DNA of 64,000 nucleotides, from NCBI GenBank assembly GCA_021234155.1, contig JAJEKV010000023.1:4297638-4361637 (forward strand), written 5' to 3'. This stretch comes from Isoetes taiwanensis. Its lineage: Eukaryota > Streptophyta > Lycopodiopsida > Isoetales > Isoetaceae. How positions within the stretch are numbered: the first letter of the stretch is position 1; each line of letters opens with the position of its first letter. A model generated the notes under the pieces. It did no database searches. It was not told the origin of the DNA and saw nothing but the letters and a program-made list of their open reading frames with translations. Of this stretch, positions 956-60,311 are shown in pieces. A program made the translations under genes and the position numbers.

Positions 956-1017
956 ATTGCATTTGACATAAACAAATTATACAATTATTAAAAACTGCAA
1001 CCCTTGAACCAAATGAT

Positions 1018-1049
1018 AACCATCATTCAATTAAATTGGGATTATGTCT
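1018..1049 (+). repeat. Left terminal inverted repeat of element A
   Basis: Identical over 32 bp to the reverse complement of 13307-13338. Directly preceded by TGAT at 1014-1017. Confidence 0.9.
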
Positions 1050-1348
1050 TAATTTTGGGATAAATTTTATATTGCACTTTTTTAGTAACTTTGTTAAATT
1101 CACTTTTTTAGTAACTTTGTTGCCCTTAGACTAGAATAGACGTTAACATATAATCACACACGGGAATATAAATTCACACCTTAACTTCAAATTACAAAAT
1201 CATATATCATGAAACTCAAGTAGTACACAACTTTTATTAAAAGTGATTGATACATAGTAACTGTTTATCATTTTTCCACCAACATCCCCAAGGATATGAG
1301 AACCTTATTCCTTACATCCACGAGGTATTGTAACTCTCATTTGTTTTA

Positions 1349-4237
1349 CTAGGAATAGTTTTTGGAGTCCATGAGTACAATACGGTTTTCAATGTCTAGC
1401 CAAAGATCAGGATCACTAGGATTTCTCCTCCACCTCTTTGTCCAACAATCTGAATATCTTTCTTTATCGGTGACATTACTCAACTGATGTACTGGACACC
1501 ACCATTCCACGCGCACCTTATTGAAGTTAACATCACCTTCTTCTTTGCAAATATCTGAGATAGTCCATCCCAACCACACTGGATAGGTCTCTAGATCTGC
1601 TGGTTTTACTACTACAAATTGGTGGCACTCCACGTCAGTAGAAGGTTCATAACAATCCATGCCTAGATATTTTGGCCTATCCTTCTTAGGACCAACATAG
1701 TGTTTATCAGATTGAGGAGGAGCATATGCCTTCACAATGCTAGTAATGGTACCATCATCTTCGTCAGCACCAGCTAATGTTTTCCACTTACTTTTAGGGA
1801 ACCACCCTTCCAGCAGCTGTTCTGAGGATGTGTCTACCTCATCCAACAAGTTGATCACCTTCTTCCAATAATCTATCAATGCACGATTAGTCTCATCTGA
1901 ATTAGTTTGCCAATGCTTGATGTAGTCATTGATGCCATCCTTAGTCAAGCCCAATTGCTTGACTTCTTCAGTTGGTTTTAGAGCTTTTGGTTGACCAGGA
2001 GGTATCATAGGCTTGCCATTTGCATCCCTGCGCCAAATTTCTGCCCCACCTCTCCACTTCTCCTCTGAAGGTCTCATTTTCCATTGCATGATTGGAATCC
2101 CTTCTCTCACCCAAAAAGTGAATTGAAGAGGTCTAGAATGACCTTCCATGTCGAGAGCATAACCATCCACAAAACTCTTCCAATCAGGCACTTCTTCTAT
2201 GATAGATCCTATAGGAGATGGATTTGTACATCCATGAAATATTTCCAATAGCCTGGGAAAGTTGGTAACTGTCTGCTGTCTCAATACATGACTATATTTT
2301 CCAAACAATGCATCCACATCCTCATGAGTATGTCCGGGCATTAGGAACCCCAAATTGACTCTTTCAAAAATACCCACAGCTGTTAAGTAGGATAAGAAAG
2401 AAAACATCCACCTATTCTTATTTTGACCAGCACAATTATCTAGTTGCAAGAGGAGCTTTCTGGGCAGATCTCGAGGTTTAGCACGAGATGTTGAAGCTCC
2501 AACATGTTCATTAGGTCCATTCCTCCTAAATCTTGCCTTGCTAAACTTTTCAATACTATTAGGGGTTCCATCCAACAATGCACTATGTAGTGCCTGGCTA
2601 GCTGTAGGATCCTGTGAGGTGACCATTGTAACCCTTCTCATAGTTTCTTAAACACCTCATGATACTCCCAATGTGAAAATACGGACCATCACTCCACAAC
2701 TCTAAACTGAAATGGCCATAATAGGTCTGAGACTGCCCATGCAATATTGCCCCAGTCATTGAAATCTGCAAAGGGTATGATCTTCCACATGACTTAGGAA
2801 TGTACTTGAATTGTGGAAGACAAGTCTTCTGTTGGTCCATTTTATCATGTATAATACATAGATAGTTATTAGGTTCCATTGCAGATAAGGTCCTCCACAT
2901 CCAATAAGTTGATCTACATGATAGTTGATCTGTCATATGGTCCTTCATATGTTCCCTTATCTTTGCCCTTAGACTTGGTTGCACAGTCTTATCTAGTGTC
3001 TCCTTCAGCTTAGCACATAAATTGCACTTGGCAAAGTTGTTTGAAGTTGCTATGGTCACATGCTTGAAATGCTTATTCCATAGCCTACTAAAACTGGGGG
3101 ATATAGAGGCCACTCCAAGTTCAAGCAATGCATTTATTTCCTCTAATATGCTCTTACGGGTACAATGGGATGGCAATCTCTTTCAACAATAACTCTACCC
3201 CTGTTCATCCTTCTTACTCTTATGTGGCATGTTTTCTGCATTGAAATCCACATATCTTTCAAATATTTCCTTTGCAGCTATAGTTCTTGAGGTAGGCCTT
3301 ACCAGGCCAGTGTTCCCATGCAATGCAATTTTACTACCATTTTCATGTCTCTTTTGCCAGTTGTGCCAAGAAGAGGTTGGAATTCCATGTATAGCCATCC
3401 ATGCTTTTGAACATATCCACTTTCCATTCAATGGGAATCTTTTCTTCTTTGATCTTTCATCCCGAATTGCATAGCCAAATATGGTGTACATGAAATTCCT
3501 CCCGCTATCACACTTATGTTCCTGATATGTAGCTCTTGCTCCCACCAACTCCTCTATTGTGAACATTCTAACACAAGAAGCCCAACAACATTCACCTCCT
3601 CTAACCTTCATCATAGCTTCAGGAGAACAATCATAATCTGACTTGCATCTTTTGGTGGGATAATGTTTGAAAGTTGGAAGTGGCCTCTTGCTACACTGTG
3701 TAAACATTATTGACAATGGTTCTACATCTATAGGAAACGTGTAGTTCCCCTCCAGTTGAATCACTGTCCCTAGGCCATGCAACAATAGTTGGAACCTCTA
3801 GTTGCTTCACACAAGCTAGGCATTCTTGTTTGCCTGAACCCTTTTCCTTCCAATTGTCATATAATTTTGAGATTGCCACACCTAACCTGTCCTCCCCTAA
3901 TCTTTCATCATTCACTGCATTGATAGGATCTGCTAGAACAATAATCCCTTCTCCCATCGCCTCTCTCATTTGCATGCATGCAGGATCTTGACCTTTTGTT
4001 TTTCCAATCGACCCTAGTATAAAGTACAATTTCCTTTCTGTGGCATCATCCTTTTCATTTGAGGTCTTTTTCTTTCCTTTGCCATCATCTTTGTCATCTT
4101 CATCCTTTTCATTTCTGGTCTTTTCCCTTTCCTTTCCCATCATCTTTGTCATCTTCATTAGTTGGGGATTTTTCTTTGCTTTGATCACCATCATTGGGGG
4201 CCTTGGGGATTTAGCATTTTGCATGCCATTGACCTAA
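1349..4237 (-). pseudogene. DUF7869-like DDE transposase-type protein of element A (frameshifted)
   Basis: Four adjoining open segments read right to left (4224-3691, 3785-3195, 3176-2598, 2641-1349) and appear to be one protein broken by small frame changes. An acceptor-like TTTTAG precedes the first at about 4237, so upstream exons probably exist. The N-terminal part is Lys/Asp/Glu rich. The middle has Cys pairs (CNLCAKL; GGECCWASC). A D-bearing IHDKMDQQK segment lies at about 2,830. In the last segment LQLDNCAGQNKNR (residues 65-77) and GHTHEDVDALF (residues 103-113) are the hallmark of DUF7869 proteins, thought to be DDE-type transposase relatives. Two in-frame stops at 3183-3197 plus overlaps between segments mark decay. 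Position just inside the left TIR supports a role as the element's transposase. DUF7869 assignment is confident; catalytic role is inference. Confidence 0.7.
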
Positions 4238-4239
4238 AA

Positions 4240-4720
4240 TGAATAAAACCTATAGTAAGTTAGCATATCCAAATAACATCTCCCTAACATGTTCTTAAAT
4301 GAAAGTTAACCTTAATAATAACCTTAATAACCTATAATAACTTAATCTATAATAATAATAAGTTAACCTATAATATAGTAACTTCTAATAACCTTTAATG
4401 TTGTAACCTTAAAAACAACTTTAAGGCTTTAGGTTAGCACTTTTAAGGTTAGAAGTTGTAAGGTTAAAACTTCTAACCTTCAATAAATATAACCTTAGCC
4501 TAAAACTTTTTTAAAACTTAAAACTTCTAAATTCAAATTCATAAACCTTAAATCTTAAATCTTATATTAACCTTAAATCTTAAATCTTATATAAACCTTA
4601 AATCTTAAATCTTATATAAACCTAAATCTTATATTAACCTTAACCTTAAATCTTCAAATTCATTAACCTTAAATCTTATAACTTATATAACCCTTTGCAA
4701 TAAATGTTTGGCGGTTATTA
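4240..4720. repeat. AT-rich degenerate repeat block (AACCTTAAATCTT units)
   Basis: The stretch is made of variants of AACCTTAAATCTTATAT and related TAACCT words, most regular at 4545-4700. It is internal to element A, upstream of the transposase gene. I see no gene in it. Confidence 0.7.
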
Positions 4721-5900
4721 TGGCTGTGATGCGTAAATTTTTAAAGCGCTTATTATTTCAGTTCACAATCCTTTCCAACTTTTCCAGCTTTTACGTCTCT
4801 CATTCGAACTTGAACTCACAGTGCGCTCAGAACTCGCTGAACTGCTCGCTTGAACTGCTTTCGAACCGCCGCTTGATCTATCGCTTCGCTTTGAACTATC
4901 TGCCGCTTTCGAATCCATTCGCAATCTGCTTCAATCTCTCGCGGGCTTCAATCTTTGCATGCAATCTGCTTCAATCTACGCGGGCGCTTCAATCGCTTCA
5001 ATCTGCATCGAACCGCTCTTTTAGGGCTTCTATATGCTTTAAACTTCGGCTTCTATATGCTTTAAACTTCGGCTTTTCGAGCTTTTCTGGGCTTCTACAA
5101 TCATCTGCTTTAGGGTTTTAGGCTCAAAGGTGTTTTCGGCTCAAAGGTTTGTAGGCTTTTTTTGGTTTTTGGTTTTTGGCTCTTTGACTTTGGTTTTTTG
5201 TGTTAAAGCTTCTCGGTCTCCAAATCATCTGCTTTTTGTGTTAAAGATTTTTCTCGGCTTCTTAAGGCTCAAATCATCTCGAATCAAATCATCTGCTATT
5301 GGTTTTCGATCTTTTGGTTTCGGCTCAAGTCGAGGCTCAATTCTTTACCACAAATAGGTTAGTATGTCTCATTCTTTACATAAATAGGTCTGAGAACACA
5401 AATAGGTTAGTATCTCTCATTCTTTTAGTTATTTTACAGAAAGGTATTTTACATGCATCAGTATATTTACCACAGTTAATTTAATCAGTTAATCAGTTAC
5501 TTTTACATGAATCAGAATATCCTGCTCTATGATCTTGTTCTGTGATCTTGCCTATATGATCTGCTCTTATTCTATTTCACTAGCTCTTCCTCTATCTGTT
5601 CTAATTAATGATCTAAAATAATGAAGTTATTCTATTTCACGAGCTCTTCCTCTATCTATTCTAATTAATGATCATAATTCTGAAGTAAATAATGATCATA
5701 ATTCTGAAGTAAATAATGATCATAGATCATATCTGCTCTATGATCTTGCTCTATGATCTATATGATCATAGATCATAGATCTTCACTAGCTCTTCCTCTA
5801 TCTGCTCTAAATAATGAACTAAAACAATGAACTAAACAATGAACTATCGGCTTTATATTTTGAATTTCGCATTACGCATTACGCATTATGCATTTTGTTA
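4720..5900. repeat. Tandem-duplicated non-coding block inside element A
   Basis: Local duplications dominate: GGCTTCTATATGCTTTAAACTT twice near 5030-5075; a roughly 61-bp unit containing CTAGCTCTTCCTCTATCTG near 5571 and 5632, with a further partial copy near 5786; TGATCATAATTCTGAAGTAAA twice near 5690; and CGCATTA repeats at about 5868-5895. Short open frames here are not supported as genes. Confidence 0.65.
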
Positions 5901-5922
5901 GAATAATATGTTGGAATAATAG

Positions 5923-6595
5923 AAATCGCGCTTGGCGCATTTCTATTTTGGGTTACGTTTTTCCACTAGGTTAATCAAATCGCGGTAGCGCTTTTAGTTT
6001 GGCATTTCAATTTCATACGGCTCTATACAAATCGCGCCCGGCGGCGTGTGAAATAGATCCGTGCTAATTACTTTTTCTCGTTCTAGTGCCATGGATTTTT
6101 TCCTTATGCATGGACACCGGCTGGTTCAAATACACCGGCCTGGTTCTAGTTCCTGGGACGACCATCAACTCTGGACCTCGCACAAGATATTACTTGAGTG
6201 TCTTTGTTTTCAAAACGTTCAAAGAGAGTTGGAGAATCCATTAGACAGCCTGTATCGGGGGCCATGGGTACACTTCCATCGCATCTATGGACATATCAGA
6301 CTCCTCATGCTCTTAGTAAGGCTCATGCCAACAAATAAGTACAAGGATTTGATTTATAGTATCGGGGATCGATACAAACACACTGTTTGAGACTTCGACA
6401 TCCTCAGGAAAGATGAGGATCCTGTCATATCAGGGTGGTTCAGGTGGGACTTCTTGCGGGATTGGGCAGATGAAGTGGGACTGTCTGACATATTGTAGAG
6501 ATAGAAAGAATTCGCGCCTGGCGCATTTTTGGAGAAGAAGAAATGTACATAACTTTTTTGGAATATGAATACAAACTCGCGCCTGGCGCAATTTT
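5923..6595. repeat. Dispersed element palindromes, left group
   Basis: Copies occur at about 5923-5943 (TCGCGCTTGGCGCA), 5978-5997, 6024-6050, 6509-6530 and 6575-6595 (TCGCGCCTGGCGCA). They bracket the coding remnant 6061-6495. Confidence 0.75.
6061..6495 (+). pseudogene. Unidentified protein-coding remnant in element A
   Basis: One frame is open from 6061 to a stop at 6388-6390 and continues in the same frame to about 6495. The second part (DILRKDEDPVISGWFRWD and following) has the look of real protein. It is flanked on both sides by the element palindrome (about 6024-6050 and 6509-6530), so it may be an exon between palindrome-bearing introns. I do not recognise a family. Confidence 0.35.
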
Positions 6596-6830
6596 GCACT
6601 ATACTTTTCTGTCATTAGTTTATTTTTTTTTATATGCAATGTCGAAAACATTGAATCCTGTGATGCCCTCCAGCCAGTATGACCAACCCCAAGAAACTAC
6701 ATATTTTCATTAATGTGTAATTTCATGGGGTTGATAAGACTGGCTAAAGACCATCACAGAATTCAAAGTTCACAACATCACGCAGATGATATGATATATT
6801 CTTTTTTTTTGAATATCCAAATATACATAC

Positions 6831-7000
6831 CTTTTTCAGACGTTCTTTTGGCCATGCTACAAATGTGCCCACGCTTTCACCAACTGTATCGCCACCGGGA
6901 TGTCTTCTTGGAAGAGCCTCATCTTCATAATTGCAGTTTAGAATAGAAATCTTACGTAAACTTGTTCCAAGAGGAACACCATGACACATAGAACTTGGAT
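6831..7000 (-). pseudogene. DUF8039-like exon, minus strand of element A
   Basis: Read on the minus strand, an open segment contains CHGVPLGTSLRKI, then HPGGDTVGESVGTFVAWP. The order HGVPLG ... VG..VGTFVAWP is characteristic of DUF8039, a domain of plant proteins commonly linked to transposons. A good 5' splice donor (AAAAAG|GTATGT) ends it at 6831. It is on the same strand as the transposase-type gene at 1349-4237 and may belong to its upstream exons or to a second transposon protein. Connection to neighbours is inferred. Confidence 0.45.
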
Positions 7001-7149
7001 TCAAATCTTGATTTTACACAATCCTACTCAAACGCTTCAAGTTTCTTTGTTAAAAGATAGCATTCTTCTCCGACAATCGATAAAGAACCGGAATGCATTG
7101 TAAAAAATAGAGGGCCGAAAAATTGAGAACAAGAGAATGCATTTGAATT

Positions 7150-7320
7150 CACCATAGTTCAGCCGGACATCGAATGGGAATTGAAGGCGGCTCGATCGAA
7201 TGGATTGAAGGCGGCTCGATCGATCGAATGGGATCGAGCGGATCTTGGGCGCCTCGATAGTCGATTGTTCTTGGGCGCCTCGATACTAGGAATGATCTTG
7301 GGCTCTGATAGTAGGTGGCG
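7150..7320. repeat. Short GC-rich direct repeats
   Basis: Repeats of GAAGGCGGCTCGATCGA and TCTTGGGCGCCTCGATA occur two or three times each, upstream of the plus-strand gene. They could be promoter-proximal; no function is shown. Confidence 0.5.
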
Positions 7321-7572
7321 ATTAGGTGGTAGTAGATTGCCACATATCGTTTCTTGAAATTAATAATTAATTGTTATCTTGAAATTGCACTAAAAAAGAA
7401 AAACACAATTTAAATTTGTAAATGAGCTGGACAGGCGGTTAATTAAAGCGGTATAAATTTAAAAGGACGCGAATTTGAATTTACGGTTGTAAATCGGCGG
7501 CCCTAGATTATGAACATACATATAAGTTTAAACCAAAAACCCAGATCTCTTACTATCCGCACTTGCAGTTCT

Positions 7573-7694
7573 ATGGCGTCTAGAGGATCTCGCCGCGGCC
7601 GAGGTATTTGGTAGAGGTGGGCGACAGCCCAAAGCACAAATCCAAGCACGGAGGGCTGAACAAGCGAAAGTTTTGATCCAACAAGCGCCTCCGG
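7573..7694 (+). pseudogene. Exon 1 of the cargo gene (RG/Q-rich N-terminus)
   Basis: ATG at 7573 begins MASRGSRRGRG, a typical basic RG-rich start. A 4-base disruption at about 7,609-7,615 gives an in-frame TAG; after it the original frame resumes as GRGGRQPKAQIQARRAEQ. The exon ends at a GT donor at 7695. Joining 7694 to the acceptor-proximal base 8199 keeps the frame (PPG|SSKNVKRK), which supports this splice. Confidence 0.55.
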
Positions 7695-8146
7695 GTAATT
7701 GATCTGCATTTTTGTTTTGTAATTGATTTCGTGTCTCTTTTATTGTTAGGTTTCTAGGATGTTTTTCAACCAAAGTGTATTTTTCGTGGTATGCGTGTCT
7801 CTCGTGTATTGTCTACCTTTCATATTGTTTTCGTGTCATTTCTCTCGCTTCTACTACCTTGTTTTGTGTGTTTTTTGTTATAATCTTCTCCTTTACTCCG
7901 ATATGTTTTTTGTTGGAACAATTATCCATTTTGTATAATGTAGACCGTGGAAGTCTTTACTTCTGTATTCTCCAGTTCTTTTGACAAGTCTTTTTTGTAG
8001 CCTAGTATGTCTCTTATAAAAGAGAAGTGTCTGTAGGTCCCCTCTTAAGAACAGCTCGGTACAAGGATTTATAATTATGAGTGGTTTTGGTTGTGTCTGC
8101 TACTTTCCCTGTGTACAATTTATGTTTTTGAAAGTAAGGCGTCTAT

Positions 8147-8169
8147 GAAAACGCGCTCGGCGCGATTTC
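8147..8169. repeat. Element palindrome in an intron of the cargo gene
   Basis: GAAAACGCGCTCGGCGCGATTTC lies 30 bp upstream of the exon 2 acceptor. It is a variant of the 19-21-bp palindrome found about 20 times in elements A and B. Confidence 0.8.
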
Positions 8170-8198
8170 ATTACTCACCACATGATTGTAACTTTCAG

Positions 8199-9339
8199 GA
8201 TCTTCTAAAAATGTGAAAAGAAAAGCAAGAACATCTGCACAGGGTCCAGGGACATCTGCACAGAAAAAACCAAGAACGGATGAAGATGTATCAGTTGCAG
8301 ATTTGGCACACGTTGTGACCATTGACGATACGACCGAAATAATGAAGGCTCAGGTAGAGCCTCCATGTCGAAGAAGATCTACCGAGGGCTCTGAATGGTA
8401 TGTGGAGATCTTCAAGACTAGCGGAAAGACAGATCTGATTTTCATGTCTAGAGTTAAGGAAACAGATCAAATGAAGAAACAAGGTATTCTGATCACATGC
8501 GAAGAACAGGACGATTCTTACTGTTCCGTATTACTTGAAGCGGGTCAGAAAAATAAAAAAGTATTGAAGAAGTTAAATTACTGCAGTGCTAGTTCCTTTA
8601 AAGAGACTGCCCTAAGAACGGATGAGGCCGCAGATAACCTCTTCAAATTTGGCTGGTCAGGTGGTGATCTATTGACACCAAAAAAAAATATGTGAAGGTC
8701 TCTCAGCTGTGAGAAGAGCAATCAGTACAAGGCCGTCAGCTAGTCTGTACCTACAAGCTTTAAAAGAGAAGGAAGATGCAAGTTCTAGAGCCAGGGAAAC
8801 ACCAGACGTTCTAGGCATTACAGATATGACTAGTGATGATGACAAGGCGAGGCAGGTTAGAGGCCATGAGCAAACTCAAGAAATATCGACGACAAGTATC
8901 CACTGGGCCTTAGCTTCACGCATCCTATCCATGTCGACAGGCTTTTCAGGTCCACGAAGGCTATGTTTGTCAGCAGAAGATTTGACAAGCAGCACGCAAT
9001 GGAAATAGTCGACAGCATGATAGAAAACCCAGGACAGGTGCCAATGCCGGCAGATGTGGTGCCTTTTGATATGAAGACGAAGAAGGTGTTGATATGGAAT
9101 AAACTTGAAGATTTAACTGGCAACCTCGATATTCACTTCATGATAATAGATGGCCAAAGATTCGGTGGAGGTTGTATGAAGGTTTTGATCAGTCAAGCAC
9201 AAAAAACTGGAAATCAGTTATTCTATAGACTGTATTCAGTCAGAAATTGCCGATTCCTCAGTGGCTCCACAACAGCAGCAGAATTAGCCGAAATCAGCGC
9301 GCTACTGAATGACATGGGAAAGACATTCCTGTACAAAAG
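8199..9339 (+). pseudogene. Exon 2 of the cargo gene, ParB-like region
   Basis: The exon follows an ACTTTCAG acceptor and ends AAAAG|GTATTTT. The first 165 codons are open (Lys-rich nuclear-localisation-like start, KRKARTSAQ, QKKPRTDED). A 9-A run at 8681-8689 shifts the frame, and a second shift lies near 8,885. The last part has RRFDKQHAMEIVDSM, a P..V..F segment, then HFMIIDGQRFGGG. The order R.fD..ha.eiv.SM ... IIDGQh matches the ParB/sulfiredoxin DGQH fold, but the usual His after DGQ is replaced (DGQRF), so activity in this copy is doubtful. The family call rests on this short pattern only; a structure-aware profile search is needed to confirm it. Confidence 0.5.
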
Positions 9340-9367
9340 GTATTTTATGTTCCACACATAGCGTTCC

Positions 9368-9614
9368 AAATCGCGCCAGGCGCGTTTTCGCTAATCACGT
9401 ATTTACAAGAAACGCGCCTGGCGCGATTTCTTCATATGGCTGCGATTTTCTAAATACGTGATTAGCAAAAACGCGCCTGGCGCGTTTTATGTTGTTATTT
9501 GTGTGACGGATTTACAAGAAACGAGCCTGGCGCGAATTCTTCATCATGAAGAAATCGCGCCAGGCGCGTTTCTTGTAAATACGTGATTAACGAAAACGCG
9601 CCTGGCGCGTTTTA
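9368..9614. repeat. Cluster of six GC-rich palindromes (intron)
   Basis: Six copies of GCGCCTGGCGC or GCGCCAGGCGC cores lie about 30-60 bp apart, centred near 9379, 9420, 9477, 9529, 9562 and 9602. Each is flanked by AAATC/GATTT or AAAAC/GTTTT arms. Linker words (ACGTATTTACAAGAAA and its reverse) recur in both orientations, giving larger nested inverted repeats. The cluster sits in the intron between 9340 and 9670. Confidence 0.9.
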
Positions 9615-9670
9615 TATTGTTACTTTCACGACCTGTTTATTTTTTTTATCTAACGGCCCATATTTTGCAG

Positions 9671-11630
9671 TCCGTATGTGGAGCTTGCGACGCCAGAACC
9701 AATGGATCGAATATGGAAAACCAATGCCGACGGACAAAGGGCAATCTAAGAGTGCGAATTCAAATTACTAGAAAGGACAACATGCCAAACCATAATACTG
9801 GACAAGAACAAGGCCACTAGATCAAAGAAGAAAAAAGGGGATGCACAAGTCGGGCGGAGTAAGAGCAAGCGGTGCCAAAGGATGCCCGCAAGATTATTTT
9901 TTCTTCCTCGACTGTATGGGAAAAGTGGAGCAATTTTGGGACGCCTATTCGGAAAAGAAGTTGCGGATTCGTATGGCGGGTTTCCTCCGCAAGATACGCC
10001 TATTTTTGATATAGGTATCACGTAAATGAGAAAGGCACAAGGATTGGATGATGCGGAATTAATCTCGATTTCTAGATAGTTGCATCGAGAAAGGAAGTTA
10101 TCTACAAGAAAACGTCTGCAGCAAAGCACTTGACATCTTCAAGATGCATGCGAATCGATAAAGAATATGAAAGTCCCGAAAAAAAGTTGGTGAAGAACCG
10201 CAAAGGCTCTCGGGAGACATGATGTTATCGAGATAGGCTTAATGCAAAAGTACAACGTATCTAATGATGACATTAAGAAATATGTATTTTGGTCAAAAGA
10301 TTTTGTGAAGCAAACAAAAGGCTTAAGAATGTGGCAACTCTTAAGGGGATTCACACGAAAGTTAAGGCCCCGACCTAAAAAAAAAAAAGTTGCTTTGGTG
10401 AAGAAGACGGGCAAGAGACGAAGTCTCCCTTTTTTCTATAAGGTGTCCACCGGTTATAAGTGTGCCATGCCGAGGTAGGTGAAGGGCCAACCGACATCAC
10501 TCTATTTGTTCTTGATAGCCGCGGGCACGAGATGGACACAGGATGATTATAAAGCACCTTCTTCAACACATGCGTTGGTTTGACGATCGAGATGCATTAT
10601 ACTATCGTGACAGGTTTGCCACTCCGACATTTTACGCGATATGCACTAGCTGCCGCAAATGATGTCGAATGCATTAAAGTGATGAGGCAAGCAAGAATGA
10701 TAGATGAAAACAAAGATAGTGAGTTTAGTACCGAAAGTAAGATCTCACATGTGCTAGTCCTTATGATAGCCATTATGGATGATAAAGAATATGAAAGACT
10801 CAAGGGAAACCGGAAGGTGAGAAGATTGTTTGGCGGTGCTTCTGGGCTAGATGAACCCCTATTGAAGAATGTTTTTATGTCGAATCCAATTGTAAGACAA
10901 AGGAAAGGGACCGCAGATGTGGATGTGGACGGACGAAGAGGAAGAGGAAGAGGAAGAAGAAAACTGGTCGACCACGCCCTTAATTCACCAATCAAGTATG
11001 AGCTCTTGACGGCGCATAAGGGGGGAGGCTGAATAAGCACGGGTTTTCTTTGGCCCTTTCGAGTTTTTCGATTGAAGCCTTTCGCCCGTTAGAGTCTAAT
11101 GTTGGGAGTTTCATGTTGGAGGTTATGTCGGTGGGAAGCTCAAGCTAGCTAGGAAATGCCAAAGTGTGGTCTCCGATGGTCAAGCCAAGGACTTCCTCGA
11201 TATTTTTTCGAGAAAGTGCTAGAGGTGGCACCTAGGGGTCCGCTAGGTAGTGCAAAAAATAAAGCTTCCAGCTCTAAGTCCAGCTTTTACCGCAGATCCT
11301 GGGGCTGCAGAGCGGGAAGAAATGAGAAAGCATATAGAGGGCATAAGGAAGAATATCGACAAGCAAACAGCTTAACTATGCGGCCGAGGCGTGCCTATCC
11401 TTCCAATCACATTGGAAAATCCGATTTAAGTGGATGTAGGTAACATAAGCGAAGAAGACAAAATCCTAGATGATACAATTGGATTAGGAAAGCTCGAATG
11501 GGGTTAGCATAAAGAGTAATGAAGTATCAACCATAGTTCAAACACTAAGTGATGTGGTCGACACTTCCGCGCATCAAGAAAGGCGGTAGAGAGTAAGCTC
11601 ATCATTGCGGATGTTGAACAGAACCGAAAG
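9671..11630 (+). pseudogene. Middle coding segments of the cargo gene
   Basis: After a poly-pyrimidine/TTTTGCAG acceptor at 9670 the plus strand shows broken but protein-like frames: basic stretches (RSKKKKGDAQVGRSKSKR), a segment around 10,242-10,478 (SNDDIKKYVFWSKDFVKQ, RPRPKKKKVALVKKTG), the longest open frame at 10580-11032 (VECIKVMRQARMIDENKD; MDDKEYERLKGNRKVRR; an RGRGRGRRK patch), and EREEMRKHIEGIRKN near 11,320. A donor (CCGAAAG|GTATGT) ends the block at 11630. No family was recognised in this part. Frame changes are frequent, and borders of individual exons between 9,760 and 11,600 are not resolved. Confidence 0.45.
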
Positions 11631-11650
11631 GTATGTTATTCAACAGAAAT

Positions 11651-11757
11651 GAAAATCGGCGCGCCAGCGCGATTTCAATTCTTCAAACATTGAAAATCGA
11701 CCGGCGCGATTTCAATTATTCCAACAATTGAAAATCGCCAAGTAGCGATTTCAATTT
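11651..11757. repeat. Three decayed palindromes (intron)
   Basis: TGAAAATCG...CGATTTCA occurs three times at about 37-bp spacing, with cores of decreasing completeness (GCGCGCCAGCGC, ACCGGCG, CCAAGTAG). The arms are better kept than the centres. Confidence 0.8.
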
Positions 11758-11778
11758 TCTTTTTCCTTGTCTCACAAG

Positions 11779-12435
11779 TGTGTGCTTTATTATTACGGAC
11801 CTAATCCGGTTTCCTCCAAAATTCGGGTGTTCGATTTGAATGGAGTGCTTTCGCAAAAGCGTTACCTAAAGCACAATTTCCTTTATCATGGTATGCCGCG
11901 AAACCATTTGAGACATATCTGAAATGGGTATATCCGCGGCCGTATCTGAAGGAGATGTTAGACCAAGCTTTCTTTTTATTTCGTTGTGCAATTTGGTCGT
12001 CGATGGAGAATAGAAATATACAGGAAGTTTTGAGAGTAGTTCCTGAGTTACATAGAGATTGGGCATCTGTTTGGGATCAGAGCAAATGTAAGTCATTCAA
12101 TAACCCAAAGGATCCTACAGGTAAAAAAATATTTGTGAAATGCTTGAGCGACATGATGGATGACTTGGGCGTTCAGGAGAAGGAAGACATCATTATAGTT
12201 GATGATGACGCCTTGAAGTGTTGCTTCAATCGATCCACGATCACTAAATCCACCATCCTATCATCCCCGAGGATTTTGAAAAAGATGACTTCCGCTTCGT
12301 TTTGTCCAAGATCTTGCACCTAAATATCTACAGGAAAAAAGGTCGAAGAGATACAAACACTATACATAACTTAATTCGGATGGGGAAATTGATGGGGACC
12401 TAGAGAAGATCGTTCTAGAAAGGGAACTTTTTTGA
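11779..12435 (+). pseudogene. FCP1-homology (HAD-type) phosphatase-like exon
   Basis: After a TTGTCTCACAAG acceptor the frame reads IRVFDLNGVLSQKRY, the HAD/FCP1 motif I position (DLNG, with the second Asp of DxD replaced by Asn, as in several plant members). A frame change near 11,890 is followed by PRPYLKEMLDQAF and RCAIWSSMENRN (motif II, WSS), WASVWDQSKCKSF, KKIFVKCLSD and IIIVDDDALKCCFN (motif III/IV, DD). The order and spacing fit plant FCP1-homology/NIF proteins, which dephosphorylate Ser/Thr in nuclear substrates such as the RNA polymerase II CTD. The stop is at 12433-12435. Motif order is clear; activity is unlikely in this frameshifted copy. Confidence 0.65.
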
Positions 12436-12639
12436 TATATATATATATGTATACAGGAAATACACTTTCCAATAAGTTTTGAATATGAAATATACTTTAC
12501 ACCAAACTCATTCGAATATATATTGTGTTCTTATATCAGCATTATTGGTTCTGTGTACGTATTGTTCTTTTATATTACGTGTATGGTTTGCTATACTTGC
12601 AATAATTTGTATGTATATACCGTCAATAATTTAGGTGTC

Positions 12640-12846
12640 TATAAATACGTATGCATGAAATTGGCAAACCATCGGCTTCGGCTTCGCCTTTCTGCTTGTT
12701 ATTATGGCACATTCTATTACCGCCGGATGAACCACGCAGACCTCTGCGAGTGCCGCGAGCTAGAAATAGAACTTCGTGGATCCGGCTTGATGTCGTTGCT
12801 ATGAATCCCGGGCCCGCTTCTATCCCGATCCCTTTGATGTTGTAAT
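12640..12846 (+). other. Possible coding remnant downstream of the phosphatase-like exon
   Basis: A short plus-strand frame (MHEIGKPSASASPF and following, to a stop at 12845) has GC-rich, coding-like composition unlike its AT-rich surroundings. No family is recognised, and it may be a 3' exon or chance. Confidence 0.2.
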
Positions 12847-12985
12847 CCATCTTATATGGAATCCGAGCATGGTTTGTTCATGATCGAAAGGATCAAAGAT
12901 CAACCGCCGCTGCCGCCTTTGTCGACGATGATTCGGATTAGTTTTTAAAGTTTATGTTCCACTATAATACGTTATGTATGAAAAT

Positions 12986-13007
12986 AAAATCGCGCCACGC
13001 GCGATTT
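12986..13007. repeat. Element palindrome near the right end
   Basis: AAAATCGCGCCACGCGCGATTT lies about 330 bp inside the right terminus; a half copy at 13291-13301 lies beside the TIR. Confidence 0.75.
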
Positions 13008-13306
13008 GACCCTTGAAAATCTCTGTTCTGTAGCAACTTGCTTGCTGTTATTTATTCGTAAAACACTACAATTTCAATGTTTAGATTTCGTTGTAAATTC
13101 GGTGATTGTACGAATTAATAAGCAATTTCCTACTTTTTATATTGCCAACATTCTTTCATAATATGGGTCATTTGGACCGAATATTTGGATGCCCTTGCAT
13201 TTCAACATAAAATGCATCTTCCTAGCCCGAAAATGAACTCAGTGCAAAAGTGTGGTTAATTCAATATAATGGTCAATAAATAGCTTATACGGCGCGATTT
13301 TGGAAT

Positions 13307-13338
13307 AGACATAATCCCAATTTAATTGAATGATGGTT
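13307..13338 (-). repeat. Right terminal inverted repeat of element A
   Basis: Perfect inverted match to 1018-1049, followed by TGAT at 13339-13342. Its inward sequence (TCCAAAATCGCGCCG when read from the end) is nearly the same as the left end of element B, showing that the palindromic motif starts right at this terminus. Confidence 0.9.
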
Positions 13339-13342
13339 TGAT

Positions 13343-13715: not shown

Positions 13716-14650
13716 CATTATGTATGCAGAAAGGTTTGAACTTTGGACATGGCGTACACGGAGGGCCCTTTGCTATCACCTTCCTCACACATGCCACCTC
13801 CTTTTTCAACATTCTACCATGAAGCGCCATCTCCACTATATCTGCAAGGTGCACCACATGGATGATGTTAGATATCCTGTTCTTGCACTTGCCATGGCTG
13901 AATCTCCTCAGCGTTTGAAACGATGTTGGAAAGAGCATTGCACTACATGGTTTGCCCGTTGGGTCTGTAAACCGAGTAACCGCCTCGATGCTTTGCCGGT
14001 TCTAATCCCGAGCTTTTGCAACAATATCTCAATGGTCGCTTTTTTCTCAAAAGATATGGGACGCTAGATTACTTTGGCCCAAGTGAAAACCGGTCATTAT
14101 CATGCACACATAAATCCCACTTTGGCACCAGGGCCCCAAGTTTATTTGCTTGCTTCATTGTCCAGGAACAAGCTTGTAGCTATTGCATCAATTCGCACGG
14201 GGTCCCACAGACTACGGATTGAGACAGGTAGATGGGAACGGCCGCAATTGACGCGAGAAGCGAGACTATGTGCCTGTTGCCAGTTACAGGTTATTGAAGA
14301 TGAAAGCCATACTCTTCTGAGTTGCCCTGTTTTTGAGATAGTCCGGAATCATTTTTTGACCTTAGCATTCCATTCCACGCTTCCACAACTTCTTAGAGCA
14401 CCATCTGTGCAAGACTTGGCATTATACATACTTGAGGTTCTAGATAAATGTCTGCAATTACTGAGCCCTCAGTAGTCATTATCTCCGCTTGTCTAGTATC
14501 ATCATTACTGCAAAGGTTTTTCCCTTGAAAACCTTTCGAGGCAGGGGTTTTTTATTCCCAGTAGTAATGATTGTACTAGCCCATTGTATGGGTCCCATGA
14601 CCTATTGGTCTCCGTGGACGTTAAAAAAACTATTCTATTCTATTTACAGT
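13716..14650 (+). mobile_element. LINE, 3' part with (CTATT)n tail
   Basis: Plus-strand frames at 13720-14067 and 14074-14475 encode the post-RT C-terminal region of a LINE protein, including LALAMAESPQRLKR, HYHAHINPTLAPGP and a Cys-His cluster CACCQLQVIEDESHTLLSCP. The stop is at 14473-14475. The 3' UTR has a hairpin (GGTTTTTCCCTTGAAAACC), the shared block GGTCTCCGTGGACGTTAAAAA and a CTATT repeat tail ending near 14,645. The copy is 5' truncated, with frame changes near 14,070. The same family is present on the minus strand at 49,545-50,600. Confidence 0.8.
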
Positions 14651-18326: not shown

Positions 18327-19086
18327 TTCAGCGATTGGGGTTGCCACAGTTGCCAAACATGCCATAGCCAGAAAAGTTTGCAACGTGTCGAAAAAATTTT
18401 CATAGAAGTGTTGCGCACGAAAAAAGCTGACGTGTCGTGATCATAGCATCGGTCTCCAATAATTATATATGTTAAGATAATTATTTCTTGGCACCTCCCC
18501 GGCTCAATGACCAACATATTTTTAAAACCATCATTCAATTAAATTGGGATTATGTCTGGTCCAAAATCGCGCCGAATAGGCTTATTATAGGCCATTTTAG
18601 CTATATAACCATGTGTTGAATTTGATGAAACTTGTAAAATATGATGGAATTTAACCTAAAAATTTTATGTTTTGGCAACATAAAAACCTAAAAAATTGCA
18701 TATTTTAAACACAATTATCCGCAACCGCGAAATTTGTAGAGTAAAATAACAAGTATATTTGAATAACTAACTGCAAGAAAGTCCTTATTTTCGAAATGAA
18801 AATGGCTACCGGGCGCGATTTTGTGGACATAAACATACTACATTTATGCAGATTCAACTCAAATATTTATACAAACAATAAAATTTATGTCCTACAAAAT
18901 GGTCAAAACAGACGATTTTACAAACGTGAAGAGTCTTTATAATGCTCCTGATGCGATTTTATCCTGCCCAAAATACTTAAAATGTCCTACAAAATAGTTA
19001 AAAAAAACCAGTTTTAGAGAAAAATAATAACAAAAACATCCTACAAAACAGTTAAAAGAACAACTTTTTATGGAAAAAGTAAATAC

Positions 19087-19209
19087 AAAATCGCGCCTGG
19101 CGCGATTTAACAAGGACAATCACTCTCAAATGTCCTTAAAAATGTCCAAAAATGACAAAAAATAAGGAATAGGCTAACCTCAAATCGCGCCAGGCGCGTT
19201 TTCATTTTC

Positions 19210-19271
<62 letters not shown>

Positions 19272-19304
19272 GCACTCACCTCAAATCGCGCCAGGCGCGA
19301 TTTC
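19087..19304. repeat. Family palindromes in element B
   Basis: Three good copies lie at 19087-19109, 19181-19203 and 19282-19304, with half copies at 18562-18574 and 18811-18822. The copy at 19087 is a perfect palindrome with the core GCGCCTGGCGC. Confidence 0.9.
19212..19270. repeat. Poly(T) tract of 59 bp
   Basis: An uninterrupted T run lies between two family palindromes in element B. The length is probably unreliable in assembly. Confidence 0.9.
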
Positions 19305-19589
19305 AACTATGGGCTCTTCACAAAACCCTGCAACATCACGAAATTGAGAAAATTTTAATCCCACGCAACATCACGAAATTGAGCAAATTTCACCTTTGAT
19401 CTTGAAATTGCTTGTTTGTAACACTTCAAAGTAGGTCGGATTTGACAGTTAGATCATGCCCAACCCCAAAGCCCCTTCAATAATTGTGATTTTGAGCATT
19501 TTTGGGCTGATTCAACATCAGAATTTGTATTGCAGCAAGCAACTGTGAATCAAGTCAAAATTACAAGGGCTTCTCTCCAGCAATCTGGA

Positions 19590-20160
19590 CTATTACCATC
19601 CTGCCGAGTCTACCTAGCAATAACAGAGTAATATCTAGAAGAGATAACAGATGAGATATTGGTAGTATACCTAGCAGTATCCAGAAGAGATAACAGAGTA
19701 TTGTATTGTTGCGTCTGGGCTGTGCTCCAAGTGCTTCATCCACCAGTGTTCCATCCGCCGTTGCTCCCAAGCGCCCACATTCTGATTCGATGTGGAAAAG
19801 CTCGATGGAAAACCCTGTGGAAAAGCTCGATGTGGAAAGCCTGTGGAAAACCTACCCGATATGGTAAAAGAGGCGTGGACCTCTTTGTTGAGAAACGAAG
19901 AAACACAAAATAAAAAACTGAAGGCGGAGCAACTAAAAGCGAGGAGGGAGTAAAAGAAAAGGGACGGGCGGGAATTTAGAGGAGGGAAAAAAATAAGGAG
20001 AGGGAGCAAAAGAATAGGAGACGAAAAAAAGGGGGGAAAACGGACGGGCGGGAATCTGAAAATTGAAAATTGAAAATGAAAACAAGAAAGGCGGATGGAG
20101 AGAAAAAACAAAAAAAATGGCGGACGGGGAATAAAAAACAAAAAAAACGCGGACGGAAAA
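19590..20160. other. Right half of element B, purine-rich
   Basis: It holds short duplications (AGAAGAGATAACAGA; GTGGAAAAGCTCGATG) and a purine-rich tract with GGCGGACGGG words at 19,920-20,160. The hydrophobic minus-strand frames here come from this composition and are not supported as genes. Confidence 0.5.
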
Positions 20161-20419
20161 AAGTACCAAAATTAAGACATATTCTCAATTTTTTTGAATG
20201 ATGGTTTTAAGATCATTTATGACTCTTTCTTGCACATGACATCTTCGAACAAACGAAATAGATTTTCAAGGTTGTGATCGTGTCATTGACACGAATAGAT
20301 CAAACATAAAAAAGCATGCATGTATGAACACTAAAATATAGATTGATAACCATATTGATAAAAGCTAAAGATTAAACCATCTATTAGGTAGTAGCCAGGA
20401 ATTACACAGACGCCAATTA

Positions 20420-28134: not shown

Positions 28135-29019
28135 TTAACTACTTGATGTTGGCCCAGATGAATTATTATTGGGAGGCATCTGCTGTTGCTGCCAAACAGG
28201 CTGCTGACCAGGCTGCGGTGACATATATGCCGAGAAAGATCCACGCGGTTGCTGGGCGTATAATGCTGGATCCATAGGCATTGCAGGCCTTCCCATCACC
28301 ACTCCTGGTGGCACCATACCCCCCTGCTGTGGCTGTGGCATTTGACCACCTAAAACCTGAGATTGTTGTGGCATATAATACACCCCTCCATAGGGTATTG
28401 GTTCTGCTGGTGCGCCAACAGGCAATGCAGGATGTGGAAATCCTATACCCTCCTCTTTTAATTCATCCCTTGGTACAATGTCCACCAAGAAGTCAAATAT
28501 GTCTGTACGAGTAATTGCTGCTGCAATATCATTCTTCTGAAGCGTGCGTCGTTTATTTTCTTCAGTATGTATCCAGGCCCTTAAAGTGAGCTCTAATATA
28601 AACATCTCACAGGCCTTAGCAAAAAGAACAGGGGCCTCAGCTGCTATCATCCTCACATCCTCATCTGCTTTCATTATCTTCTTGATACGTGCTAAGGGCA
28701 ACTGATGAGTCTTGAAGTCCATGACCTGTTCAATTTCTTGCCTTTGTCCCATCCAAAATGCCTGAAGTTGCTCTTGTTGCTGCTGCTGCAGATATTGATA
28801 GCTAAGTGGAGCTGGGTATGCACCCATGGCCTGACCAGGAACCTGTGCAAGGCTTAAAGAAGATGCTTGAGCTCCCTGTTGTGACTGATATGTTGGTGAC
28901 ATCCCGGCTGGTGGAGCAGCAGTTGCTTGTCCTTGATTATTATACTGCTGCTGATTTTGTCCAGGGTCTGCCCTTACTGGCTGTACACCCTTTTGATCCA
29001 TTTCTTTCTCACTACTCAA
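28135..29019 (-). CDS. NF-YC: Nuclear transcription factor Y subunit C (NF-YC/HAP5)
   Basis: This is an intact single-exon frame of 294 residues. NF-YC pairs with NF-YB through a histone fold, then with NF-YA, to bind CCAAT boxes in the nucleus; in plants it also serves in flowering, light and ABA responses. Residues 1-80 are Gln/Ala/Pro rich and include a polyQ run; residues about 83-96 ([14 protein letters not shown]) and 105-186 form the conserved core: [18 protein letters not shown], then [24 protein letters not shown], and [19 protein letters not shown]. The C-terminus is Gln/Pro/Met rich, the usual activation region. Core residues look unbroken. A second Met at residue 7 could also start translation. 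Lack of introns in the coding part is normal for plant NF-YC. No operon-like context; nearest neighbours are repeats. Confidence 0.95.
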
Positions 29020-31490: not shown

Positions 31491-31950
31491 TTTTACTCAA
31501 GTAGACAAGTTTGGACGTTGGATAATAGTCAAATGAATGGACAATGGGCAAGAGTGGGGGATTGTGAATGGGTACGCACCTAATCAGCCATGTCAACGAG
31601 GTTCTTTGTGGGCCACCTTACGGACCAAGATTATGCGACTCGGACCTAATGTAGCATGGCTATTGGTTGGTGATTTTAATATGGTTGGGCTTGAAGGTGA
31701 TAGATGTGGCAGAGGCACACAAGTTGTTCGGGGATTTGAACGTGAGCGCTGGAGGCAGTTTCTGCTGGATTACAGGCTTGTAGAGATTGACAAAGATCAA
31801 TATTTTACATGGTGTTTTGGTTGGACTGGACCAAGTAGAGCTTATGCTCGGCACGATCGTGGCTATTATAATGTAATAGCTGCTGGCTTGTTGGGTAATT
31901 TGCAAAGGGCAATATGCTTGATAGTTCTATATCTGGTCACAATCCACACA
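31490..31950 (+). mobile_element. LINE endonuclease (APE-type) region, left half of a split LINE
   Basis: The frame from 31537 reads GIVNGYAPNQPCQRGSLW, WLLVGDFNMVGLEGDRCGRG, FLLDYRLVEIDKDQYFTW and AYARHDRGY, and (in another frame) SGHNP near 31,940. This is the order of the apurinic-endonuclease domain of LINEs (N.YAP, GDFN, D..T., R.DR, SDH.P). The key GDFN is intact; the DR motif is kept; frame changes occur near the end. The LINE resumes at 36394 after a 4.4-kb insertion. Confidence 0.8.
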
Positions 31951-32112
31951 TTAGGGCGGATTTGGGGTCTCAAAATGGCCCTTAACTTGGATGCCAGAAT
32001 TCCACGTCATGTTTCTCGCGACCAATGATGTTTGCGCATTTTTTTCCAAAGTCAATATTAGTTGGCAAGTAGAAAGAGGAGCAGGCGCATTCATTGCAAC
32101 CACATTAATGGC

Positions 32113-37365: not shown

Positions 37366-39920
37366 ATGATGAGATCTAAAAGAAACAAAATGGAGCCATA
37401 AGGGATAAATGGTGAATAGAATCCACCAAACTGATGAGGCAAAGGAATAATAGGGACCAGCAAGACACAAGAACCGAGTGGTGTGCCAGGAACTAAACAG
37501 TAGCATTGAAAATGATCCTAAGAAAGTAAAGTGATGAAAATAGACTCTAATGAATCGGGCAATCTGAATAAAGATAACTATAAGGATAAGAAAGCATGAA
37601 CATCTGACTCGCAAGGCTAATAGAACAAGTAAAACCGAGGGTCAAGAAGATTAGCAATGAAACTATGAACAAGGGAAAATAAAACAACAAAGCCAAATAA
37701 GAATAATGAGACTAAAAGAACAAATTCAAAACAAATGAACCCAATCAACCAGTCATGGAGTAGCCATTGAGCAAGCGAAGCAAGATGACATAAATATGAT
37801 TAAAGGCGATAGAAACCGGCCGCTAGACATGTGGAAATACTTGACTGAAATTTAATCTACCTTGATTGCTGTCAAGAAAGGCACAGAGCAGAACTCAAAT
37901 GCAACCAGCGACGGAACTGCAATACTACATGACATGGAGCCCACTGAGAAAGAAAAAATCCGTGAGAATATGCACAAATCCATGGAAACTTTCTCACCTT
38001 TCTCCAGTCTTGGAGTAATCAGAACTTTAAGTCTTGCAGGATTATGGATCAAATAGGTCGAAGCTACTTAGATGAGATGGGAGCTTCAACTGCAGAAATC
38101 GGAAGCAACGGGAAGAAACCCCTTTTTCTTTATTTCGTTTATGCGGCCCCTGCCCTTGACAATTGGAATAAACGTCAACTGAAAGACTCTAATAGAAAAC
38201 ACTCCAAGAAGGAAAGTGGCAGATGGTCAACCTTGGAGGAATAAGGGGGAAGTGAGTAAGAAAAAACGTAACATGAACTATGGAAGCAAATAGGGTACAA
38301 GCAGGAGTGCAGGAATCCATAAGAACAATCAGGACCATCGAAATAAGAACGAATATCAGGCAGACACTAAAGAGGCTCGCGGAACTGTACAAGGTTAATG
38401 ACACAATCTAAGACAACTAGAACTAAAGGAAGTGAAAAAAATAGAAAAATGAGTAAGGGCAATTGAACCTTGAGATCGAATAAATGAATTGGCACATTGA
38501 TGATAAGGACCTGAAGCAATGACTCTTTAAAAAACAAGATAGAAAGCGTCCATGGAACTAAAGAGACCACCAATCATGGAACTAAGAAATCACCAACCAT
38601 GGAACAGGCGGAGTAAAAAGAGCAAATAAAAAAAAGGCAATAGAAATTTTACCATAAATAGAAGGGCGAGAGGAACAAATTTGACAATTGAAACATATGA
38701 ACAAATACAAGGATTCCATGAAGAAATAGGACATAAGGCCAACTTAGGTGAATAAAATTGGCGAAAACAAGAACTATCGAAGTAAATGGAGCACAAGTAG
38801 GACTACAAGAACCATAGGAGAAAACAGGACAAATGGAACAAGTACGACACTAGGGCAAACACTAAAAAGATGCACAAACTATGAGACAATGGAGCAATAA
38901 AGGATGACCAGAACTAAAGAACGTGACGGGTGACCTAGAGAGAAGACAATGACTGAGGTAGTGGAATAATTAATGAGATACAAAATTGATGGAAAAAGAT
39001 ACAAACTGACAAAGCACTCCAACCTTAGGGATCAACCCAGCCCAGTGTCTAAGTAGGATGAAGGGGATCAGAGATAACATGGTAAATGAGACTAGGGATG
39101 GAGCAAAGAGATAGCGATGAAAGGGTAACACGAACCGCAGGGCCCAAACAGCATGAAAGCAAGATTAACAATGACTAATAGAACAGGCTAAAAAAAAAAA
39201 AGCCAGAAGAGACCATGAATAAGGACAAAATGAAACAATAAAGTCGAACACGAGCTAACAAGACTAAAAGAACAAAACCATAACAAATGGGCAAGAAGAA
39301 CAGACTATCAAACTAACAGAAAGGAGATGTGAAGAAGGTAGAAGGTAGAAGATAGCCATAAGGATTTTAAAAAATTTTCAAAAGCAAGATGGAACATGCC
39401 CAAAGAACGAAAGAGACTAACCAACTATGGAACAAGAGGAGCAACATGCGACAAATCAGAGTAGAGGCAATAGAAAAGGGATACCACGAAGATAAGGGAC
39501 AAAAGGTTTAACTAGGTGAACGCTTAAAGGTGGCATATGCAAGGACTACAGAAGCGGGTGGAGCACAAGTAAGACTGCAAGGATCCATAAGAAGAAACAT
39601 GATAATTAGAACTAGTACTACGACAACAGAGCAACCACTCCACTAAAGAGACTCACAGTATAAGGGACAAATGGAGCAATAATAGACAACTAAAACTAAA
39701 GCACATAATGGGTGATATGGAGAGAAGAAAACGAATAAGGCAGTGGAAATAAACGAGATAAAAAAGGATTGAAGGCACATGGGTTTTAGGGTAGTTGTAA
39801 CACCGACAAGAACCAAAGAGACACATATAAACCGTATAACTAGGAAAAACGATTCCAATATCATCACTAATAAGCATATGGAAAAAGGTTAGATCAAGAA
39901 ATGAGCACTCTAGAGGAAAA
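37366..39920. repeat. Degenerate repeat region, about 770-bp period
   Basis: Purine-rich sequence in which related segments recur: a block with GGAGCACAAGTA...AAGGATCCATAAGA near 38,283, 38,786 and 39,558; one with ACTAAAGAGAC.ACCAA.CATGGAAC near 38,551 and 39,400; and one with GACTAAAAGAACAAA near 37,710 and 39,260. Spacing suggests a unit of roughly 770 bp with deletions. All long minus-strand hydrophobic frames here follow from the purine-rich plus strand and are not genes. Confidence 0.45.
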
Positions 39921-49540: not shown

Positions 49541-49544
49541 GAAT

Positions 49545-58866: not shown

Positions 58867-58892
58867 ATTGACACATGTAAATGGAACATATC

Positions 58893-60202: not shown

Positions 60203-60311
60203 GCATACAAGACATCAGATGTTGGATAATGGGAATGGGTGCAGGAAGAGGATCACCAAATCCAATCTTAGTTAGATCCCTAAACCATCCATCAGCTCCA
60301 ATGTTATATAC

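Follow-up and report, generated by a model that had tools for sequence, protein, structure and literature searches.

Sola transposons encode a DDD transposase, create 4-bp duplications of their target and end in terminal inverted repeats (TIRs) of 11-1124 bp; most are 2-9 kb long, some exceed 15 kb, and they are found in bacteria, metazoans and Physcomitrella (PMC10741241). Sola1 is known from Physcomitrella and also from Capsicum (PMC9033089), and SOLA elements are commoner in Azolla than in Salvinia (PMC6786969). In the brown alga Ectocarpus, Sola1-1_Ec32 carries a gene on the strand opposite the transposase for a ParB-like and DNA methyltransferase protein, which its authors suggest binds and modifies its own transposon (PMC12477816). 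In Arabidopsis, VANC21 binds a 9-base motif in non-coding VANDAL21 DNA, and methylation is lost as a result (PMC5735166); fungal DNA transposons are reported to encode a TET/JBP dioxygenase, another element-borne enzyme of DNA modification (PMC12730594). Here we analyze a 64,000-nucleotide stretch of the Isoetes taiwanensis genome (contig JAJEKV010000023.1, positions 4,297,638 to 4,361,637; the window), which contains at 1018-13338 a 12,321-bp element, element 1. It is likely one decayed member of a family of large cut-and-paste DNA transposons that is very abundant and, by structure, of the Sola type, with a DUF7869 transposase, a conserved second gene (the cargo gene) and a non-coding motif. 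The available part of the Isoetes genome paper mentions repeats, not Sola (PMC8566536), and none of the literature matches listed for Sola or transposase concerned Isoetes.

The features of element 1 are as follows.
1014-1017: left target-site duplication, TGAT
1018-1049, plus strand: left 32-bp TIR, perfect
1349-4233, minus strand: decayed transposase gene, in pieces 1352-2647, 2601-3182, 3198-3797 and 3694-4233 with shifting frames
2075-2479, minus strand: match to DUF7869 (PF25273), residues 57-191 of the open reading frame (ORF) 1352-2647, containing LDNCAGQNKN and GHTHEDVDALFG
5919-8198: non-coding region between the divergent genes, with the motif as a 10-mer at 6029 and 8159 and in looser form at 5919, 6505 and 6570
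8199-9339, plus strand: cargo exon, borders approximate (GT/AG by eye), ParB-like by motif reading only
9340-9670, plus strand: intron with an inverted motif array, 10-mers at 9368, 9420 and 9552
9671-11636, plus strand: main cargo exon, decayed in the window, open over 690-722 amino acids at loci L056, L060, L061, L062 and L072
11637-11804, plus strand: intron with the motif, 10-mer at 11703
11805-12330, plus strand: FCP1/NIF phosphatase-like exon, upstream border uncertain
12987-13300: motif sites of the 3' part, as 10-mers at 12987 and, immediately inward of the right TIR, at 13291
13307-13338, minus strand: right 32-bp TIR, perfect
13339-13342: right target-site duplication, TGAT

The two TIRs are complementary at 32/32 positions, with 0 matches in shuffled sequence, and TGAT stands on both sides, in agreement with the original prediction for this DNA. 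The termini read AACCATCATT, and no match of them to any known family was made. The source genome comprises 1110 contigs with 1,658,258,908 bases in total. The outermost 29 bp of the TIR occurred in it at 1896 forward and 1918 reverse places with at most 3 mismatches, and the reversed control gave 0 and 0. Pair spacing was counted among the 100 end places listed genome-wide, all of them exact. Among them, 40 neighboring pairs shared a contig, with 23 in plus/minus, 4 in minus/plus and 13 in the same orientation. Thirteen of the 23 plus/minus pairs were spaced 12.1-12.85 kb, 8 were spaced 13.7-27.5 kb and 2 lay farther apart; the closest minus/plus neighbors were separated by 29 kb and the closest same-orientation neighbors by 537 bases. 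The prediction had called for a search for pairs of the repeat 1-15 kb apart with 4-bp duplications, and such pairs recur in the genome. Ten of the 13 pairs at 12.1-12.85 kb were fetched, giving with the window copy 11 full-length copies (the further copies measure 12.1-12.5 kb). All ten share the borders of element 1, and each has an exact 4-bp duplication (ATAA, ATGA, GATT, AGTT, CAAA, TATA, CCTC, AACT, GATT and ATGC). As the fetched copies were picked by exact end matches, their perfect TIRs follow from the picking; the duplications were not picked for.

The window holds a small relative of element 1.
18526-20206: second, non-autonomous member (element 2), 1681 bp, with TIRs and motif 10-mers
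18522-18525 (left) and 20207-20210 (right): TTAA duplication flanking element 2
The left TIR of element 2 (18526-18557) is identical to the element 1 end at 32/32 positions and the right TIR (20175-20206) at 28/32, and over its first 75 bp element 2 is 88% identical to the right end of element 1. Except for the ends and some short stretches that carry the motif, it has no match to element 1, and it is too short to hold the cargo gene. With TGAT and TTAA included, the 12 duplications have no apparent fixed target. The joined flanks of element 2 align across the insertion point at five other genomic places; four of these read through with equal length on both sides at 83-85% identity, and the fifth is one base longer, at 78%, with about 21 bases on the left. 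These five places look like related sequences without element 2.

The original prediction of a DUF7869-like gene on one strand was borne out by the minus-strand ORF 1352-2647, which matches DUF7869 (PF25273) with E 8.8e-36 and 123.7 bits (Pfam cut-off 26); the gene piece preceding it has a weak match to the start of DUF7869 (E 0.022, below the cut-off). Both the transposase and cargo genes of the window are interrupted by several frame shifts or stops, and the longest transposase open frame in the 11 full-length copies is at most 432 amino acids. Open natural copies of the transposase occur elsewhere in the genome, with 557 amino acids at L068 and up to 807 (at C423:60383) and 1167 amino acids in rows of a genome search (13,729 first-look candidates, 97 scored, 101 rows). 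The DUF7869 gene lies inside each of the 11 full-length copies, which are pairwise 92-97% alike over the gene. None of the three outcomes that the original prediction named as refuting it (other borders in other copies, ends never paired at this distance, DUF7869-like frames outside other copies) was observed. With the PF25273 profile, the source genome gave 9902 first-look candidates, of which 150 were scored, and 0/14 control genomes matched; the control genomes that are named are prokaryotes. The ten best-scoring loci (L041-L050) all have LDNTTRENKN, pointing to another type of DUF7869, which is better preserved with frames up to 600 amino acids and some search-table rows of 987. In an alignment of 14 plant and bacterial proteins, Asp 447 (LDN) and Asp 489 (HTHEDVD) are invariant and Asp 315 (HDKMD) is kept in at least 90% (L068 numbering). 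These three conserved Asp residues fit a DDD transposase, and the minus-strand gene of element 1 is likely a decayed DUF7869 transposase. A PDB sequence search with the DUF7869 ORF returned nothing at E<=10.

Relatives of this gene are encoded in bacteria. A degenerate DNA pattern for DNCxGQNKN was found at 12 places in GTDB genomes, 11 in frames of 251-668 amino acids and one (L004) in a frame of 41 amino acids, and PF25273 scored above its cut-off in 10/10 bacterial frames scanned (L011 was not among them). Inverted repeats surround 8 of 11 bacterial loci (L001, L003, L005, L006, L007, L008, L010 and L012) and were not found at L002, L009 and L011, where contig ends restrict the view. Exact 4-bp duplications are present at L001 and L006 (ATTT, by script) and at L008 (AATT, by eye). 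In IMG/VR the same pattern had 0 matches, and other searches there gave 0, or 3 pattern stretches with none confirmed. Like the Isoetes family, the eight bacterial elements have a DUF7869 gene between inverted repeats, some with a 4-bp duplication; they differ in measuring 2.0-3.5 kb between repeat ends and in their termini, four of which start with GGGG (L001, L005, L007 and L008). The expectation that defined termini would tie DUF7869 to a mobile element held in 11/11 Isoetes copies and, with inverted repeats, at 8/11 bacterial loci. No mention of DUF7869 was found in the literature searched, which leaves out most subscription journals.

The structural features of the Isoetes family fit the Sola type, to which it is provisionally assigned. 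The 4-bp duplication is found at element 1, at element 2 and in 10/10 further copies, and both the 32-bp TIRs and the 12.3-kb size are within the ranges reported. Occurrence in plants and bacteria likewise agrees with the Sola description, and the three conserved Asp residues would fit its DDD transposase. In contrast, the second gene and the internal motif of the Isoetes elements do not appear in the available parts of the Sola descriptions.

The cargo gene is divergent from the transposase gene and present in 11/11 full-length copies. Its exons (8199-9339, 9671-11636 and 11805-12330) were set by eye, and their joining into one transcript is presumed. The plus-strand ORF 11805-12320 matches the NIF/FCP1-like domain (PF03031) with E 7.2e-9 and 36 bits (Pfam cut-off 21.8), as does L064 with E 1.8e-7 and 31.4 bits, and FDLNGVL is readable in another frame just upstream of this exon. 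Pfam searches in two of the three plus-strand frames over 5000-12800 gave NIF only. In PDB sequence searches the NIF exon had one weak match, UBLCP1 (E 0.71), and the cargo profiles nothing convincing. When the main exon from a single copy served as query against the genome, 5299 first-look candidates were obtained and 126 of them scored, resulting in 127 rows with several frames above 700 amino acids; open main-exon frames were read from L052, L054-L058, L060-L062, L072 and L073. The prediction had described a spliced gene with ParB-like and FCP1-like parts, and only the FCP1-like part has a significant profile match. It had also regarded the multi-exon cargo as host-like. The gene itself is present throughout, as an accessory gene of the family and not a single host-like capture. 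As a separate observation, the open-cargo copy at C1027:2490066 (C1027:2486081-2493638; L060, L063-L065) has a main cargo exon open over 717 amino acids, and its right end is perfect. It contains nothing similar to the transposase half of element 1, and a left end was looked for within 12.7 kb of the right end and not found, so this copy is recombinant, truncated or joined to another left half.

The full-length copies are of two types according to their cargo gene.
Type A copies: window, C30, C67, C106, C112 and C258
Type B copies: C74, C85, C113, C115 and C170
Over the transposase gene the 11 aligned copies have a mean identity of 95.2% within types and 94.3% between them. For the cargo gene the corresponding values are 86.9% versus 66.5% (first exon), 91.2% versus 67.2% (main exon), 83-90% versus 53-58% (the two introns) and 90.3% versus 74.0% (FCP1 exon), followed by 91.0% versus 86.2% at the right end. 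Ratios of nonsynonymous to synonymous divergence (dN/dS) were computed by the Nei-Gojobori method, using only blocks with local identity of at least 40% and, for type A, pieces from decayed copies. Between types, dN/dS was 0.05-0.27 with dS of 0.81-3.2 in 32/40 pairs; the pairs left out were 6 with fewer than 60 aligned codons and 2 with saturated dS. Within type B, it was 0.12-0.35 in 41/45 pairs and 0.44-0.81 in four pairs of close copies. Within type A, the three computable pairs out of six gave 0.37, 0.38 and 0.94, as expected for copies decaying after insertion. Given the low dN/dS between types, the cargo gene has probably been kept by purifying selection for a long time. The cargo diverged long ago, and either recombination then placed both types next to a common transposase half or that half was homogenized. 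A single capture of the cargo was rejected in view of its presence in 11/11 copies, the two old types and the low dN/dS.

The non-coding DNA of the family has a motif of its own. The 10-mer AAATCGCGCC/GGCGCGATTT occurs 8 times in element 1 and 7 times in element 2, and 0 times in the remaining 49,982 bases of the window; the means in shuffled sequences were 0.02 and 0.003, respectively. Ranked among all 10-mers, it comes first in type A copies and second in type B, behind CAAATCGCGC, which overlaps it by nine bases. The 11 copies contain 79 such 10-mers, often doubled towards the palindrome AAATCGCGCC-W-GGCGCGATTT. All 79 lie outside the exons and the transposase half: the region before 8199 (spacer and intron) has 24, the two introns after it have 22 and 19, and the 3' part has 14. 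The exact 21-mer palindrome occurs 9 times, in 4/11 copies, and at 613 places genome-wide (reversed control 0). Among the 34 palindromes checked, which are those of the 50 listed places on contigs covered by the end list, 33 have an exact family end within 13 kb and lie inward of it, 32 of these at under 4.1 kb, and one is 14.6 kb away. The base preceding the motif in the two introns is C in 1/24 type A sites versus 9/17 type B sites, a hint only as the sites share descent. The AAATCGCGCC half-sites, and AAATCGCGCCWGGCGCGATTT, are candidate targets of the cargo protein.

Based on the ends, the duplications and established transposase biology, the DUF7869 protein would be a DDD transposase that cuts at the 32-bp TIRs and inserts with a 4-bp stagger. 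The second gene would make an accessory protein, and this protein or a partner would bind the motif and control the element, although the transposase itself could read the motif. The long conservation of the cargo gene, its presence in 11/11 copies and the location of the motif in the non-coding DNA of the family suggest such binding. We tentatively consider it possible that the second-gene product binds the motif and thereby affects the element encoding it as well as small relatives retaining the motif, most likely by lifting silencing or controlling expression. The closest precedents are the Ectocarpus accessory protein and VANC21. A fuller version of this proposal is doubtful as a whole: in it, a ParB-like, degenerate methyltransferase-like and FCP1 accessory DNA-binding protein would read a palindromic tag in introns and spacers of its own family as a self-recognition module, lift silencing in cis and in trans, small relatives with the tag included, and exist as two ancient alleles exchanged like cassettes.

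Several results weigh against these proposals or parts of them. A genome search with the joined flanks of element 1 returned only its own two flanks, and of the empty-site alignments called for by the original prediction, those obtained are the five related places for element 2. An exact 4-bp duplication is absent at 8/11 bacterial loci, including five with inverted repeats, and AATT at L008 is palindromic and could be part of the repeat, making it ambiguous. The ParB-like reading comes from FMIIDGQHSIEAQK and from IDGQHSIEAQ in L052, L053 and L061, by motif reading only. No ParB match was found in Pfam at E<=10 for the cargo proteins; in PHROGs, ParB appeared with E 0.1 in just one of two pieces (L075), and the best match of L061 (E 0.06) was to a portal protein; hhalign of the cargo against ParB gave P 0.39, and phage tblastn with the ParB-like exon found none. 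The methyltransferase-like reading comes from a motif-I-like stretch, LHVGGYIGREALKLARKCQSVVSD, over which hhalign to methyltransferases gave P 0.14. N4/N6 DNA methyltransferases have (D/S)PP(Y/W/F) as motif IV; the place read as motif IV has LDSRG, LDSRD, LDSCG or LDSHS. Both identities failed all profile tests (Pfam, PHROGs, NCBIfam, PDB profiles and hhalign) and are unproven as labels. Element 1 and, in total, 7/11 copies lack the exact 21-bp palindrome and have half-sites or decayed forms. Finally, the motif core is identical in both cargo types, with no clear co-variation of protein and site; different cores for each type were considered and rejected, as only the preceding base leans.

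Other explanations of the motif and the cargo gene were weighed against the same data. The motif may be an internal or subterminal signal for transposition, recognized by the transposase or by a host factor, with the cargo doing something else. The half-site just inside the right TIR (13291), which has a counterpart at the corresponding end of element 2 (18564), and the 7 sites in element 2, which has no room for the cargo gene, are consistent with such a signal, whereas 0/79 10-mers are in the transposase half and many sites are intronic, with distances to the closest end of up to about 5 kb; on balance we regard this explanation as rather unlikely. It is improbable that the motif array is a functionless by-product of a small repeat spreading in the family. 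While motif copies in the intron at 9353-9625 do form inverted duplications, the 10-mer ranks first in type A and second in type B despite introns only 53-58% alike, and it recurs in element 2, the interior of which is largely unrelated to element 1. NIF/FCP1-like domains are common in plant genes, and together with the exon-intron structure this could indicate that the plus-strand gene was acquired from the host, as a Pack-type passenger without a role for the element. Its presence in every full-length copy, the two types with dS of at least 0.81 and dN/dS of only 0.05-0.27, and the 5299 first-look candidates genome-wide, with long open frames in many of the 127 rows, make a passenger very improbable.

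With regard to the transposase, the DUF7869 elements could form a separate superfamily with 4-bp duplications that is not Sola. The Sola likeness is one of structure, the duplications have no apparent fixed target and the termini were matched to no known family. However, the 4-bp duplications, the three conserved Asp residues, the size and the occurrence in bacteria and seed-free plants all agree with the description of Sola, so a separate superfamily seems an improbable explanation and a Sola-type family by structure is preferred.

The Sola-type Isoetes family shares with Sola1-1_Ec32 a giant size and an accessory gene on the strand opposite the transposase (PMC12477816). The Ectocarpus element is 21.5 kb long with ParB-like and methyltransferase parts, while the Isoetes element is about 12.3 kb with FCP1/NIF supported and those two parts unproven; the Isoetes side also differs in being a land plant and in having a candidate target motif and two cargo types. 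Among the literature matches listed for ParB with transposon, methyltransferase or Sola, the Ectocarpus paper was the sole relevant case (PMC12477816). In a bacterial frame, L098:1459-2796, a single protein matches both ParB and N6/N4 methyltransferase, the same combination as described for the accessory protein of Ectocarpus. VANDAL elements are of the MULE (Mutator-like element) type. VANC/VANDAL21 is similar in having an element-encoded accessory protein and a short motif for which the family is enriched, largely in its non-coding DNA; its motif is in same-orientation tandem arrays, whereas the Isoetes motif is often a palindrome and its role is putative (PMC5735166).

The rest of the window contains further mobile DNA and a host gene. 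A reverse transcriptase-like frame at 56840-60214 on the minus strand matches RVT_1 within 56840-58120 (E 1.1e-4, below the cut-off); the adjoining frames have no Pfam match, and the whole is a retroelement of unclear type. At 31537-32025 on the plus strand, a weak endonuclease/exonuclease/phosphatase match (E 0.0048, below the cut-off) is perhaps a remnant of a long interspersed nuclear element. An open 294-amino acid frame at 28138-29019 on the minus strand has a histone-fold/CBF-NFY match (E 2.5e-17) and reads as NF-YC-like, a plant host gene among mobile elements. An inverted repeat pair (13880-14646 and 49535-50245) is 76% alike over 774 aligned columns and about 35 kb apart, a strong local A-over-T skew (0.448) is present at 38001-40000, and Rfam gave 0 matches in the window at the gathering threshold.

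DUF7869, a domain of unknown function, gains a likely role: in a plant and in bacteria, it would be the transposase of elements that make 4-bp duplications. A land-plant case joins the giant elements of Sola type reported from algae, in which the accessory gene lies on the opposite strand (PMC12477816). The Isoetes family offers a candidate DNA target in its motif, which in the places examined is almost confined to the family, and the two old cargo types swapped on one transposase backbone would be a clear modular exchange in a DNA transposon family. With such a family in hand, the question of how large transposons stay expressed in silenced genomes becomes testable outside Arabidopsis.

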